A stretch of DNA of 64,000 bases from an uncultured Pelagibacteraceae bacterium (GTDB taxonomy: Bacteria > Pseudomonadota > Alphaproteobacteria > Pelagibacterales > Pelagibacteraceae), in NCBI GenBank assembly GCA_902591045.1, contig CACIZC010000002.1, positions 1 to 64,000 on the forward strand, in the 5' to 3' direction. Positions within the stretch are counted from its first letter, which is position 1; every line of letters starts with the position of its first letter. Below, piece after piece: positions 15,316-28,876 of this stretch. The notes beneath the pieces are model-generated. The model made no database searches, had not been told where the DNA came from, and saw only the letters and a program-made list of their open reading frames with translations. The position numbers and the translations under genes are program-made.

Positions 15316-16374
15316 TTAAAAACATACCAAGTGGTCAATATAAATCGGTGTTTTAATGCCAAACTTTTCTTTAATTTTATGTTGGTGTTCATGATGTGAA
15401 TGGACAAAGACCGGAATAATTTGATTTTTTTTTGTTTTTAACGTGTAAATAAAATTTGTTCCTCTAAATTTTCTATCTACTACCTCTAATATTAAGTTGC
15501 TTTTATCATCATGTTCCAAATCTTCAGGTTGTATTAAAAGTTTAACAGATGCTCCTACCGATTGCTTTTTAATAAATTTACCTTTTATTGTACCTAATTC
15601 AGAATTTTTTAATGTATCATTTCCTGTAACTTCAGCGTCTATTAAAATTCCTCTATTTAAAAATTTAACAACATCAATTGAATTTGGATAATGATAGATG
15701 TTGTAAGGTATATCAAACTGCTTTAGAGATTGGTTTAATATAATTCCACATTTGTCAGCAAGATAAAAGGCTTCGTAGGAATCGTGGGTAACAGCAATAG
15801 TTGTAATATTTATTTCTTTCAGAAGATCCTTTATCCTTTTTTGTAATTCATCTTTCAAACTTTGATCAATGTTAGAAAATGGCTCATCTAATAAAAGAAG
15901 ATCAGGTTTAGACATTAAAGATCTAGCCAAAGAAACTCTTTGTGCTTCGCCTGCGCTTATCTCGTGAGGATATTTTTCTTTTAAATCTTCTAAATGCAAA
16001 ATTTTTACTAAATCATTATCAGAATAACTAAACTTTGAACTTTTGTTTCTTTTAACTCCAATATTTATATTGTCGAGAACATTATAATGTGGAAACAATG
16101 AATTGTCCTGAAAACATAAAGCTATATTTCTTTTTTCTGGTTCAAGATTATAATCGTTTGAAGAAATTACCTTACCTCTTAATTTAATTTTTCCAGATTG
16201 TAAATTTTGAAGACCTGCTATAGTTCTAAGCATTGTTGTTTTTCCAATGCCAGAAGGTCCCAACAAACAAATAATTTCACCTTCTTCTTTAATTGTTAAC
16301 GAAACATCATTAACTTTATTTTTTTTACTTGCTGCAAAGGTTGCTTTTTCTATTTCAAGGAAATTTTGTGTCAT
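15316..16374 (-). CDS. Iron(III) ABC transporter ATP-binding protein (FbpC/FutC type)
   Basis: Walker A LLGPSGIGKTT, ISAGEAQRVSLARSL, LLLDEPFSN; C-terminal regulatory domain; clustered with Fe(III) permease and binding protein. Confidence 0.88.
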   Translation of the reverse strand: MTQNFLEIEKATFAASKKNKVNDVSLTIKEEGEIICLLGPSGIGKTTMLRTIAGLQNLQSGKIKLRGKVISSNDYNLEPEKRNIALCFQDNSLFPHYNVLDNINIGVKRNKSSKFSYSDNDLVKILHLEDLKEKYPHEISAGEAQRVSLARSLMSKPDLLLLDEPFSNIDQSLKDELQKRIKDLLKEINITTIAVTHDSYEAFYLADKCGIILNQSLKQFDIPYNIYHYPNSIDVVKFLNRGILIDAEVTGNDTLKNSELGTIKGKFIKKQSVGASVKLLIQPEDLEHDDKSNLILEVVDRKFRGTNFIYTLKTKKNQIIPVFVHSHHEHQHKIKEKFGIKTPIYIDHLVCF

Positions 16375-16395: not shown

Positions 16396-18012
16396 CTATT
16401 TCTCTGAAAGTATATATCTAGAGACAAATAATATAAGTAAGCTTGCCCATATAACCAAACATAACGAAGGAAAAGCAGCAGCTTCCAACAGATCTTGAGC
16501 GGCATATGAGTATGCTTTTGTTGCAAAAGTTTCAAAATTAAAAGGGCGAAGTATTAAAGTAATCGGGAGCTCTTTTATAATTTCAATAGCAATTAAAACT
16601 CCTACGAGAAAAATACTATTTTTTAGATAAGGAACATGTATTTTTGTGAAAGTTTTAAGTTTTGAGTATCCCAAAAGATATGCGCTGTCGTCTATTGATT
16701 GATTTATTTTTAAATAACCCGATTTAATTCCATTAAAAGATAACGAAAAAAATCTAACAAAATATGCAATAACAAGGCCGATAATTGAACCAATAAACAA
16801 AGGTTTAAAACTAGTAAAACCAAAGAGAGAAGTAAAAGTATCGCTTAGCCAAGAAATGAAAGTAATAAAAGCAACGGCCAATATGACACCTGGTATAGCA
16901 TATCCAGATATAGAAAAAGCCGATAAATAATTCAAAAATTTACTTTTAGATATTCTGTTTCCATAATTTGATAAAAAAGAAAATATTATTAAACATCCGC
17001 TAGATAAGAAAACTAACAAAAGTGTATTTAAATTGAGTAGCCACAAGTTAATATCCTGAAAATATTTTGGAAATTTTATTGTCCAATAACTCATTTGAGC
17101 GACTGGAAATAAAAAACTACAAAAAAACAATAAAGAACAAAAAGAAAAGGCTAAAAAAGATTTTCTTCCTTTTAGTTCAATTTTTGGAATGTTCTTAAAA
17201 CCTTGCGACGGTTGGTGATATTTAGCCCTTTTTCGAGAATAATTTTCAATAATAAACAAAAATAAAATAAAAAATAATAATAAAAAAGACAATTGGTTTG
17301 CTGTTGTGAGGTCATCAAAAGTAATCCAAGCGTTATAAATGGCTGTTGTTAATGTTGAAATACTAAAAAAAGATACAGTTCCAAAATCAGATAATGTTTC
17401 CATTGCTACTAAAGATAAACCTGCAACAATTGCCGGTCTGGCTGAAGGTAAAATAATTCTGGAAAAACTTTGATTTGAAGAAAAACCAAGGTTTTTTCCT
17501 ACTTCTATTAAATTATGTGACTGATACAAAAAAGAAGCTCTTGTTAATACATAAACATATCCAAAAAGTGAAAATGATATTGAAAAAATAGATCCTATTA
17601 ATCCATCAAATTTAGGTATATATTTGTTATATTCTGCTTCTCCTAAAAAAAAAGTTAATATTGAAAATGCAGTACCATAATTTTCAAAAAAAGCAGTTAA
17701 TGAATAAGCATATATATAAGCTGGAACTGCAAAAGATAAAATTAAAGCCCATTTAAAAAAATTAACTCCAGGAAAGTCATAGAAAGATACAAAGTAAGCT
17801 GCTGTAACACCAAAAAATAAAGTTAGCAATAAAACTCCAACTAAAATTAAAATTGAATTAGCAATATATTCTAAAAGAAATGTGTCCTTTAGAATCATTA
17901 AATAATCGCTAGTTGTTTCAAAGAAACTAAAAAAAATTGTAATAATTGGTATTGCTACCACTAAAGGTACTATTAAAGAACTAATATACCAAAAATTTAT
18001 TTTACTATTCAA
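16396..18012 (-). CDS. Iron(III) ABC transporter permease, fused two-domain FbpB/FutB type (TTG start)
   Basis: 538-aa multi-TM protein with two permease domains; TTG start preceded by SD GGAGGAGGAGAG. Confidence 0.88.
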   Translation of the reverse strand: MNSKINFWYISSLIVPLVVAIPIITIFFSFFETTSDYLMILKDTFLLEYIANSILILVGVLLLTLFFGVTAAYFVSFYDFPGVNFFKWALILSFAVPAYIYAYSLTAFFENYGTAFSILTFFLGEAEYNKYIPKFDGLIGSIFSISFSLFGYVYVLTRASFLYQSHNLIEVGKNLGFSSNQSFSRIILPSARPAIVAGLSLVAMETLSDFGTVSFFSISTLTTAIYNAWITFDDLTTANQLSFLLLFFILFLFIIENYSRKRAKYHQPSQGFKNIPKIELKGRKSFLAFSFCSLLFFCSFLFPVAQMSYWTIKFPKYFQDINLWLLNLNTLLLVFLSSGCLIIFSFLSNYGNRISKSKFLNYLSAFSISGYAIPGVILAVAFITFISWLSDTFTSLFGFTSFKPLFIGSIIGLVIAYFVRFFSLSFNGIKSGYLKINQSIDDSAYLLGYSKLKTFTKIHVPYLKNSIFLVGVLIAIEIIKELPITLILRPFNFETFATKAYSYAAQDLLEAAAFPSLCLVIWASLLILFVSRYILSEK

Positions 18013-18016
18013 CTCT

Positions 18017-18058
18017 CCTCCTCCAATTTAGTCCCCGGAGGAGGCCAGGGACTAAATT
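18017..18058 (-). promoter_or_regulatory. futA-futB intercistronic RNA element: 11-bp hairpin with anti-SD loop complementary to the adjacent futB Shine-Dalgarno
   Basis: Minus strand AATTTAGTCCC-TGGCCTCCTCCG-GGGACTAAATT-GGAGGAGG; loop CCTCCTCC is the exact complement of GGAGGAGG. Confidence 0.75.
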
Positions 18059-18069
18059 TTTCTTATATG

Positions 18070-19086
18070 TTAATTCCAACCAGCTTCGGTCATTATTTTC
18101 AATGCCTTAGCTTGAAGTTTACCATATGAAGAAACTTTTGTTTTAAGATCTTGTTTGAAACCTAAACCAAACTGAGAAATTAATTTATTTGGTTCAATTC
18201 CATCAATCATAGAGTACTCAAACGTATTGTTAACAATGTGCTTTTGCGCTTCTGGAGTTAATAAAAACTCAAGAAGTTTAATAGCATTAGCTTTGTTTGG
18301 AGCATGTTTTAAAATTCCTCCACCGCTAATATTCATATGTGTTCCTCTTCCATCCTGATTAGGAAAGAAAGGTTTTACTTTTTTGGCTGCCGCTTGCTGT
18401 TCTGGACCTTTTTTTCCAGACAACATTAATGCTATGTAGTATGTATTCGCTACTGCCCAATCAGCTTCTCCTGCTGCAACTGCTAAGATTTGTGCTCTAT
18501 CATTGCCTTTTGCTTTTCTTGCAAAGTTAGATACCAAACCTTTAGCCCATTTTTCAGTTTTCTTTGCTCCATTATTTTTGATCATAGAAGCAACTAATGA
18601 TTGGTTATAAACGTTGTTGGATTGTCTGATAACAACCTTGCCTTTGTACTTAGGATTGGCTAAATCTTCATAAGTCATGTTCCATGATGGATTTACAGTC
18701 TTTGGATTATAATAAATTACACGAGCTCTTTTAGCTATACCTGTCCAATAGGCATTTCTAAAATTAGCAGGTACAACTTTTTTAATTCTAGCTGAACTTG
18801 CTCCTTTTTGAAACATTCCTTCTGATTGAAAAGCACCAAGTCTTCCTGCATCAGCAGTAATATATAAATCACCTTTGCAGTCTATGCCTTCTTCTTTAAT
18901 CCTTTTTTGTAAGGCTTTATCTTTTCCAGAAACAACATTTACTTTAATTCCTGTTTTTGCAGTAAATTTTTTGTAAAGCTGCACATCTGAATCGTAGTGT
19001 CTTGCGCTAAATATATTTACTTCCTGCGCCATTAATGACGTGCAAACAAATAAGAAGCCCAAGATGCTTAATAATAATTTTTTCAT
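18070..19086 (-). CDS. futA: Iron(III) ABC transporter substrate-binding protein (FutA/FbpA family)
   Basis: Signal peptide; VNIFSARHYDSDVQLYKKFTAKTGIKVNVVSGK; C-terminal GGGILKHAPNKANAIKLLEFLLTPEAQ. Confidence 0.92.
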   Translation of the reverse strand: MKKLLLSILGFLFVCTSLMAQEVNIFSARHYDSDVQLYKKFTAKTGIKVNVVSGKDKALQKRIKEEGIDCKGDLYITADAGRLGAFQSEGMFQKGASSARIKKVVPANFRNAYWTGIAKRARVIYYNPKTVNPSWNMTYEDLANPKYKGKVVIRQSNNVYNQSLVASMIKNNGAKKTEKWAKGLVSNFARKAKGNDRAQILAVAAGEADWAVANTYYIALMLSGKKGPEQQAAAKKVKPFFPNQDGRGTHMNISGGGILKHAPNKANAIKLLEFLLTPEAQKHIVNNTFEYSMIDGIEPNKLISQFGLGFKQDLKTKVSSYGKLQAKALKIMTEAGWN

Positions 19087-19121: not shown

Positions 19122-19150
19122 GTTATATTGATAATGATTATCATTTTCAA
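19122..19150 (-). promoter_or_regulatory. Predicted futA promoter (-35 TTGAAA, 17-nt spacer, -10 TATAAC) with a Fur box in the spacer (19130-19148)
   Basis: Minus strand TTGAAAATGATAATCATTATCAATATAAC; GAAAATGATAATCATTATC matches the classical Fur consensus GATAATGATAATCATTATC at 18 of 19 positions. Confidence 0.82.
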
Positions 19151-26458: not shown

Positions 26459-27712
26459 TTATCCTAATTTTATATTTTCAATTCCAACAATTTTATTATA
26501 CGCCCAATACAAAACTAACATAACTGCTAGCAGTATTGCCCCTAGTGCTGAACATAGCCCCCAATTTAAAGTTGTTTTTAAATGATAAGCTATAAAGTGA
26601 CCAATTAATAAGCCTTCTGAGCCTCCTACCAGTTCTGGTGTGATAAAGTACCCAATAGCAAGAACGAAAACTAGCAAACCACCAGCACTAATTCCAGGGA
26701 TCGTTTGTGGCATATAAATTTTATAAAAAGCGTGCATTGGTTGAGCTCCTAAATTTAAAGCTGCACGCATATAAGTTGGAGAAATTGTTTTCATAACACT
26801 ATATAACGGAAGCACCATAAACGGTAATAAGATTTGGGTCATAGCTATTAATGTGCCGGTTTTGTTATATATTAACTGCATACGATTTTCGTCGGCTATA
26901 ATTCCTGCCCAAACCAAAATGCTGTTAAAAATTCCTTTTTGCATCAAAATCACTATCCATGAAACTGTTCTAACTAATAAAGAAGTCCAGAAAGGTAACA
27001 AAACACAAATCATAAGTAAGTTACTGAATTTTAATGGTAATGTGGCTAATAAATAAGAAATTGGATAGCCTAAGATTAAACAAAATAATGTTACAAGAAC
27101 ACTGACCTCAAAAGTAAGCCACCAAGTTGAATTATAGATCCTTCTTTTTTCTGGTTGTTGAATAATTTTTTTATTTGAATCGTATGTTAAATCTACCGCA
27201 TTTAAATAATAACCCATAGTATATGGGTCAACCATCTGTCCTAGTGCTTTCCAATATTCTATGTTAGCCCATCTTTTGTCTATTGCGATCATCTTTTCTT
27301 TGTAAGGACCTTCTTTGATTTTTTTGAATTGTCTTTTTGATTTTTTAATTAAACTCTTCCAACCAGACTTGCTATAATTCATACGGGTACTAGCTTTACC
27401 AATTTGCCGTCCGTCTGCAGTTATAACTTCGTTGAATAAGGTAGCATACATTTCTTCACTAGGAAGATCACTTTGGTCCCATTTTTTATAAATCTCAAAA
27501 GTTTTTGGAAAGACTGTATTAATTTGCTTATCATCAACACTTCTCGCCAACATATTAAATATAGGAAAAACGAAAGTGATAAGAATAAAAAGTAATAAGG
27601 GTAAAACTAAAGTAAATGCCCGAATTTTGTTTTTTCTTTCAGCTTTTTTAAGACTGACTTTTAAGGGTATCCCGTCAGTCGTTAATATTTGATTATTTGC
27701 TGCTTGACTCAT
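26459..27712 (-). CDS. Spermidine/putrescine-type ABC transporter permease (PotB-like) with large TM1-TM2 insertion
   Basis: EAA loop YMRAALNLGAQPMHAFYKIYMPQTIPG; about 140-residue hydrophilic segment after TM1. Confidence 0.88.
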   Translation of the reverse strand: MSQAANNQILTTDGIPLKVSLKKAERKNKIRAFTLVLPLLLFILITFVFPIFNMLARSVDDKQINTVFPKTFEIYKKWDQSDLPSEEMYATLFNEVITADGRQIGKASTRMNYSKSGWKSLIKKSKRQFKKIKEGPYKEKMIAIDKRWANIEYWKALGQMVDPYTMGYYLNAVDLTYDSNKKIIQQPEKRRIYNSTWWLTFEVSVLVTLFCLILGYPISYLLATLPLKFSNLLMICVLLPFWTSLLVRTVSWIVILMQKGIFNSILVWAGIIADENRMQLIYNKTGTLIAMTQILLPFMVLPLYSVMKTISPTYMRAALNLGAQPMHAFYKIYMPQTIPGISAGGLLVFVLAIGYFITPELVGGSEGLLIGHFIAYHLKTTLNWGLCSALGAILLAVMLVLYWAYNKIVGIENIKLG

Positions 27713-27714
27713 TT

Positions 27715-27751
27715 GAATAAAAAAAAAGGCGGATAATAAATATCCGCCTTT
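27715..27751 (-). terminator. Hairpin plus U-tract between potD-like and potB-like genes
   Basis: Minus strand AAAGGCGGATA-TTTAT-TATCCGCCTTT (11 bp perfect) then TTTTTTATT, ending a few nt before the potB-like ATG. Confidence 0.85.
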
Positions 27752-27766
27752 TAATATTTTTTAATA

Positions 27767-28876
27767 TTACTTCTTGTTACCTGCCATCCACGCTGTCCAT
27801 TGTTCTTTTAGTTCAGCGTTGTTGTCAGCCCACCATACAGGGTCCGTAAATACAGATTTTTTCAATCTTCTTTTAGTATTCGGCATGTGTGGTAGCACGT
27901 CTACACCAGTGTGGAACCAAGGTTCATTTGCTTTAATGATCTTAGTACCGCAATCTCTCATAGGCATGTAAGTAATGTACTTAGCTTGTCCAGCTTGAGA
28001 TTCACAACTAGTAGCGTGTTTTAAGAATTCAATAGCTTCTGCTTTATTTTTTGAACCCTTAGGAATAGCTACCCAGTCTCCGTCAAGTACTTGGCCTTCC
28101 CAAATGTAATCGAAGCTAGCGCCTTCTGAAAGAATAGCAGCTCCGGCACGACCATTGTACACGATAGACATAACTACTTCACCGCTTTTTACTAGTTCTA
28201 ACGGTTGAGCTCCTGCTGACCAGTGAACTACATGTCCTTTAAGTTCTTCAAGTTTAGCAAATGCTCTGTCTGGCCCACCTTCAGCCTGTAAAACAGAATT
28301 TACTTTAGTAGGTTTAACTCCGTCAGCAACAAGTGCCATTTCAAGAACAGCTTGTGGCCATGTGTGAACACCTCTTTTTCCTGGGAATTTTTCAACGTCA
28401 AAGAAATCTTTCATTCTTGTCGGTTTTTTTCCAGGAAAAGCTTTTGGATCAAAAATTACAACATATGACCAAAAGATTTGTGGTGCTGAACATTCTGAGA
28501 TTGGTCCGCTTGAACCAGCACCATTTTCTTTAATACTAGCGCTGTATTTTCCACCTTCCCAAGTGTCCATGTCAAGTTTTTCAAATAAGCCTTCGTCGCA
28601 ACCATTGATCATGTCTACAGGTAGACCGTCAACAACGTCCCACTTAACGTTTCCTGACTCAACTTGAGCTTTTACTTCCCCAAGACCACCGTTGTAGTTT
28701 TCTACTCTAACCTTAGTTTTCCCGCTTTTAACAGGTCCCCAAGTATCAATGTAAGCTTTTTGTTGGCTCATTGTGTATGCTCCACCCCAAGAAACAAATG
28801 TAAAATCAGCATAAGCCGTAGCTGTAAATGCTAACCCTACTATTGCTAGTAAAGCAACTTTTATTGATTTAATCAT
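27767..28876 (-). CDS. Spermidine/putrescine-type (PotD/PotF-like) extracellular solute-binding protein
   Basis: Signal peptide; FTFVSWGGAYTMSQQKAYIDTW; AIPKGSKNKAEAIEFLKHATS. Confidence 0.88.
   Translation of the reverse strand: MIKSIKVALLAIVGLAFTATAYADFTFVSWGGAYTMSQQKAYIDTWGPVKSGKTKVRVENYNGGLGEVKAQVESGNVKWDVVDGLPVDMINGCDEGLFEKLDMDTWEGGKYSASIKENGAGSSGPISECSAPQIFWSYVVIFDPKAFPGKKPTRMKDFFDVEKFPGKRGVHTWPQAVLEMALVADGVKPTKVNSVLQAEGGPDRAFAKLEELKGHVVHWSAGAQPLELVKSGEVVMSIVYNGRAGAAILSEGASFDYIWEGQVLDGDWVAIPKGSKNKAEAIEFLKHATSCESQAGQAKYITYMPMRDCGTKIIKANEPWFHTGVDVLPHMPNTKRRLKKSVFTDPVWWADNNAELKEQWTAWMAGNKK

Follow-up and report, generated by a model that had tools for sequence, protein, structure and literature searches.

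A futA–futB junction hairpin in SAR11 bacteria with a loop complementary to the permease initiation site: a candidate element of translational control

Introduction

How can a single operon yield far more binding protein than permease? The ferric-iron transport operon of SAR11 bacteria, which rank among the most abundant bacteria in the ocean, offers a case in which this general question could be addressed. In strain HTCC1062 under iron limitation, the mRNAs of sfuC, sfuB and sfuA rose 16-, 10- and 5-fold and SfuC protein rose 27-fold, but SfuB peptides were never detected (PMC2864753). The authors of that study pointed to the difficulty of recovering membrane proteins, and the missing SfuB peptides may reflect poor recovery only; they also proposed that post-transcriptional control matters in the SAR11 iron response (PMC2864753). 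A preliminary description of an uncultured member of this group drew attention to a hairpin between the binding-protein gene futA and the permease gene futB, whose loop is complementary to the adjacent futB Shine-Dalgarno sequence (SD), and suggested an intercistronic switch or mRNA stabilizer. Here, we examine this junction in its own genome and across SAR11.

Results

The hairpin and its match to the futB SD

The window, by which we mean the entire 64,000-nucleotide stretch of DNA analyzed, comes from a SAR11-type genome whose named relatives are Pelagibacteraceae. The features of the iron-transport locus are as follows, in the direction of transcription.

19129–19143, minus strand: Fur-box-like palindrome TGATAATCATTATCA upstream of futA, which we take to be a classical Fur core (read from sequence)
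18070–19086, minus strand: futA (sfuC), ferric-iron periplasmic binding protein (gene call; best PDB matches the iron-binding SBPs 6g7n and 2pt1)
18059–18069, minus strand: 11-nt spacer between the futA stop and the hairpin (read from sequence)
18025–18058, minus strand: hairpin with an 11-bp stem (14 bp in the minimum free energy fold) and a 12-nt loop (sequence and RNAfold; kept in same-genus genomes)
18058–18048, minus strand: 5' arm of the hairpin, AATTTAGTCCC
18047–18036, minus strand: hairpin loop, TGGCCTCCTCCG
18037–18044, minus strand: loop segment CCUCCUCC, complementary to the futB SD (sequence, loop shuffles and genus comparison)
18035–18025, minus strand: 3' arm of the hairpin, GGGACTAAATT
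18013–18024, minus strand: futB SD tract GGAGGAGGAGAG, with targets at 18024–18017 (8 bp) or 18021–18015 (7 bp, genus-conserved)
18012–18010, minus strand: futB start codon, TTG
16396–18012, minus strand: futB (sfuB), ABC permease of the BPD_transp_1 type with a TTG start (gene call; TTG kept among genus homologues)
15316–16374, minus strand: futC (sfuA), ATP-binding subunit and downstream gene of the operon

The sequence reported in the preliminary description is correct letter for letter, including the 11-bp stem, the 12-nt loop and the adjacent SD, and all eight positions of the claimed loop:SD match are complementary (CCUCCUCC with GGAGGAGG, 18044–18037 with 18024–18017). A second register pairs 7 bp, CUCCUCC with GGAGGAG (18043–18037 with 18021–18015). 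The minimum free energy fold (RNAfold) retains the described stem but lengthens it to 14 bp by adding UGG/CCG, leaving a 6-nt loop, CCUCCU, instead of the 12-nt loop; the anti-SD is partly paired in this fold. On its own, the stability of the hairpin is unexceptional (z = -1.1, 96 nt). The loop:SD match exceeds chance: shuffling of the loop only, a procedure that already allows for its pyrimidine-rich composition, gave P values of 0.0016–0.005 in the window genome. When loop:initiation-site complementarity was scored as 2 per G/C pair and 1 per A/T pair, the futB start was the sole high scorer among the 56 genes in the window, reaching 14 compared to at most 7 elsewhere. As the preliminary description held, the hairpin does not resemble an intrinsic terminator, there being no terminator-like T tract after the stem on either strand between 17900 and 19300. 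Elsewhere in the window, at approximately 27715–27770 on the minus strand, a terminator-like hairpin (AAAAGGCGGATATTTATTATCCGCCTTTTTTTTT) separates another binding-protein gene from a permease start at 27712, and its loop lacks complementarity to that start.

Energetics of the competing folds

The preliminary description considered the hairpin (structure A) and an alternative fold in which the loop pairs with the SD (structure B) to be mutually exclusive. Two competing folds do exist on paper, structure A at -20.9 kcal/mol (RNAfold) and the weaker structure B at -15.0 kcal/mol in the 8-bp register or -12.5 kcal/mol in the 7-bp register. For a partial pseudoknot that keeps the top 5–7 stem pairs, the stack sums come to -27 to -33 kcal/mol, with the loop penalty still to be added; for this penalty we use a rough estimate of 9–14 kcal/mol, not a computed value. 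Because this penalty offsets the stack sums, a partial pseudoknot with a frayed A-U stem base looks comparable in energy to structure A, and strict exclusion of one fold by the other is consequently not established. The second register leaves a linker of 3 nt, and fraying of 4–6 A-U pairs extends it to 4–9 nt; linkers in other lineages span 6–12 nt, and those of genus g9 span 100–240 nt. Judged from stack sums and linker lengths, the pseudoknot looks sterically plausible only if the A-U base of the stem frays, which would be a natural compromise.

Conservation within the genus

Homologues of the hairpin were present in approximately 20 genomes of the same genus, and in all of those fetched the stem, the 7-bp match CUCCUCC:GGAGGAG and the TTG start of futB are conserved. 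The hairpin begins 11–14 nt 3' of the futA stop. One locus (L003) has a single G-U within the otherwise kept 7-bp register and, compared with another (L001), shows one compensatory change in the 8-bp pairing. The junction is of another type in five genomes of the genus (G002, G004, G011, G015 and G027). The preliminary description had called for a covariation analysis across SAR11; inside the genus, no covariation was demonstrable in a segment this conserved, and loop:target covariation was found in one loop family of other lineages, described below.

Unrelated hairpins at futA–futB junctions across SAR11

We fetched 235 futA–futB junctions, of which 193 were distinct, and added 18 further loci later. 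Hairpins are common at this junction, and their sequences differ between lineages. Even so, the loops of several unrelated hairpins are complementary to part of the futB initiation region in the same genome, either the SD or the start codon. The loop and target are CUCCUCC and GGAGGAG in g1, UCCUCUAA and the SD UUAGAGGA in L028 and L067, ACUUACCCUU and AAGGGUAAGU in L029, and UUUACCC or AUUACCC and the SDs GGGUAAA or GGGUAAU in many g3 genomes. In L112, L116 and L125, the loop UUUAUUACCC matches AUGGGUAAUAAA beside the start codon. The cultured strain HTCC1062 has a 7-bp match between the sfuC–sfuB loop AUUACCC and AUGGGUAAU; we assign the genome concerned (G053) to this strain in part because its sfuC begins at 1181971, immediately next to the intergenic region 1181972–1182071 given in PMC2704228. 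A suggestive case of start-codon complementarity is found in three genomes of genus g9, in which the stems differ around an invariant loop stretch, UGUGAGAGCAUUUG. This stretch includes 11 nt that are complementary at all 11 positions to AUGCUCUCACA at the futB start, 100–240 nt away, and it may also fold into a small hairpin of its own.

The match is not universal. Many junctions lack a strong hairpin or have a small ORF in between. The preliminary description had named hairpins that keep the stem and lose the complementarity as evidence against its proposal; no fetched homologue of the window hairpin is of this kind, but some hairpins of other lineages are. In L062, L065, L151 and L193, the UUACCC loop is present but no GGGUAA target accompanies it, and neither the g4 hairpins nor the g3 hairpins with a GUCUCCU loop show a loop:initiation-region match. 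The pairing of GUCUCCU loops (L175 and others) with the SD AAGGCGG is short and interrupted and was not counted. A 9-nt match in L138 was treated as chance because it is absent from relatives, as was a 7-nt A/T match in L085.

An alternative is that the element has a positive role, either by handing ribosomes that finish futA to futB through translational coupling or by forming a pseudoknot required for futB initiation. A hairpin that starts 11–14 nt past the futA stop lies near the edge of a terminating ribosome, as defined by the ribosome footprint, and a strong SD is combined with a weak TTG start, as might be expected in such a case. Against this, the segment bound by the loop includes the SD or the start codon itself, and futA and the initiation site are set apart by other sequence or a small ORF in g9 and in many g3 genomes. 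We consider a positive role very unlikely.

Statistical support for loop:target matching

Two tests of loop:target matching were applied, the second of which was devised after the result of the first had been seen; both results are given. In a loop-shuffle test that took the single strongest stem in each of 47 clusters, P was below 0.05 in seven clusters and the combined Fisher P of 0.10 was not significant, which we read as a sign that some lineages, but not all, have the feature. Because taking the strongest stem meant that the SD:anti-SD stem itself was picked in L029 and that the loop was cut short in g1, we adopted a swap test in which futB initiation regions were exchanged among 23 hairpin clusters. 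The score with a cluster's own region was at least 10 in 7 of 23 clusters, compared to 4.7% of swapped pairs (permutation P of 2e-4 for the mean and 1e-4 for the count), although five of the seven high scorers have a UUACCC loop, so that they are not independent and also raise the null.

Within the UUACCC family, 16 distinct rows showed A-U (seven), U-A (six), C-G (one), U-G (one) or no pair (one) at the covarying position. The covariation score was 0.195, compared to 0.087, and slid versions reached at most 0.149; the score was attained in 0 of 500 shuffles, a figure that is not a probability because the rows are related and were picked for having a target. As a background set, we used 428 starts of genes other than futB in the fetched loci. 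A score of at least 10 was found for none of the 46 that have a strong upstream hairpin, compared to 11 of 36 futB starts (Fisher 4e-5, relatedness ignored).

These results can be weighed against an interpretation in which the only role of the hairpin is to protect or delimit the futA mRNA at its 3' end and its match to the SD is incidental, given that purine-rich SDs and pyrimidine-rich loops pair easily. Consistent with this interpretation, hairpins are frequent at the junction even without a match, several lineages have no match, and the window genome carries low-complexity CCU/GGA repeats. The swap test and the covariation argue against it, however, as do the start-codon targets elsewhere, which are not purine repeats, and the background of other gene starts. 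We regard it as unlikely, though deserving of consideration. REP-type 3' stabilizing hairpins are similarly located between a binding-protein gene and a permease gene, such as malE and malF, where binding protein is likely in excess; these hairpins do not depend on a match between their loop and the downstream initiation site.

Discussion

The swap test, the covariation and the background of other starts support the view put forward in the preliminary description that the loop:SD pairing concerns futB translation, and it is very likely that this pairing is a selected feature. Our reading, which we consider probable on sequence evidence, is that the iron-transport operon contains, at this junction, an intercistronic element that controls translation in cis and reduces initiation at futB compared with futA. 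A hairpin just 3' of the futA stop would present its loop to the futB initiation region, which is the SD in the window genome. The pairing could take the form of an H-type pseudoknot in which the A-U base of the stem frays, or of an alternative fold. The loop would thus sequester the futB SD, reducing ribosome access and futB initiation, and the hairpin probably also shields or delimits the futA message at its 3' end. The net effect would be to keep binding protein in excess over permease. We infer pairing in the cell, repression and the setting of stoichiometry from these comparisons. Lowered futB initiation fits a requirement for binding protein in excess, and it also fits the pattern seen in iron-limited HTCC1062.

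Known regulatory RNAs offer partial parallels. One is the infC-rpmI-rplT operator of Escherichia coli, an L20-binding pseudoknot that is likewise intercistronic, in which upstream RNA pairs near the next start and lowers translation, and in which upstream translation can disturb the regulatory fold (PMC6962249). The futA–futB junction shares with L20-type operators an upstream hairpin loop complementary to the SD or start of the downstream gene. Unlike it, the E. coli operator requires ribosomal protein L20, and the two involve other genes and have no sequence kinship. We know of no L20-like protein partner for the futA–futB element.

SAM-V, SAM-II and preQ1 riboswitches resemble the element in topology, with a hairpin and a downstream pairing beside the start codon, and SAM-V was discovered in HTCC1062 (PMC2704228). 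That SAR11 bacteria use an SD-proximal pseudoknot riboswitch, together with the two competing folds, might suggest that structures A and B are the two states of a ligand- or iron-sensing riboswitch. The futA–futB element differs from these riboswitches in having no aptamer core and no sequence conservation between lineages. A conserved unpaired core is absent, stems and loops are unrelated, and pairing alone is common to the lineages. In the junction region, Rfam covariance models (including SAM-V, SAM-II, preQ1 and the L20 leader) gave no match at the gathering threshold, in line with the earlier statement that no named RNA family has this layout, and only chance hits up to an E-value of 10. 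A Fur-box-like site is also already present upstream of futA. A riboswitch at this junction is highly improbable.

Cuckoo RNAs of other Alphaproteobacteria are stem-loops with the loop CCUCCUCCC, almost identical to the loop CCUCCUCC in the window (PMC3927594), which raises the possibility that the hairpin at the futA 3' end is liberated and acts in trans as an anti-SD sRNA. In contrast to cuckoo RNAs, which are arrays of several CCUCCUCCC-loop hairpins read as trans sRNAs, the junction has one hairpin, with the loop CCUCCUCC, which occurs once in the window genome, lies adjacent to its target and has no Rfam match. Other SAR11 lineages use loops at this junction that match their own futB target and are not general anti-SD sequences. 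We consider action in trans very unlikely and favor the cis-acting element.

A broader proposal, which we offer tentatively and would not yet expect to hold, is that these hairpins belong to a class of regulators conserved by complementarity instead of sequence. In such a class, the SAR11 loop would track the permease initiation site, whether SD or start codon, and set binding-protein:permease stoichiometry, perhaps in an iron-responsive manner mediated by ribosome traffic or by CspE/CspL, which are RNA chaperones. We found no prior description of an element at the futA–futB junction in the literature searched. A previous RNA survey used a minimum intergenic length of 100 bp (PMC2704228), and the HTCC1062 sfuC–sfuB junction, at 74 nt, fell outside it for this reason. 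Scanning unalignable hairpins for complementarity between loop and target may be a route to regulatory RNAs missed by sequence-profile methods, and the presence of the element in the iron operon of cultured HTCC1062 makes it a directly testable case.

Other observations at SAR11 junctions

Several additional features were apparent. In many other SAR11 genomes, the futA–futB junction contains a small ORF of approximately 50–60 codons that encodes a GCxPC motif (L022, L058, L083, L130, L166, L220 and approximately 40 more); one representative, hand-transcribed from the L-series sequences, had no Pfam family match. The GUCUCCU loop is kept in many g3 hairpins despite differing stems (L175, L184, L189, L199, L217, L226 and relatives). 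In L080 and L169, the junction loop UUUCUCC is complementary over 7 nt to GGAGAAA, the SD that precedes the AUG of futA itself, and the junction hairpin of L163, ATATTAGAGGAGT...ATTCCTCTAATAT, has the SD-like sequence TTAGAGGAG in its stem. Six HTCC1062-like loci (L025, L087, L110, L112, L116 and L125) have an AGAGG tract directly 3' of the futA stop and a hairpin between this tract and the futB start codon, an arrangement that appears as if the hairpin drew a distant SD near the start.
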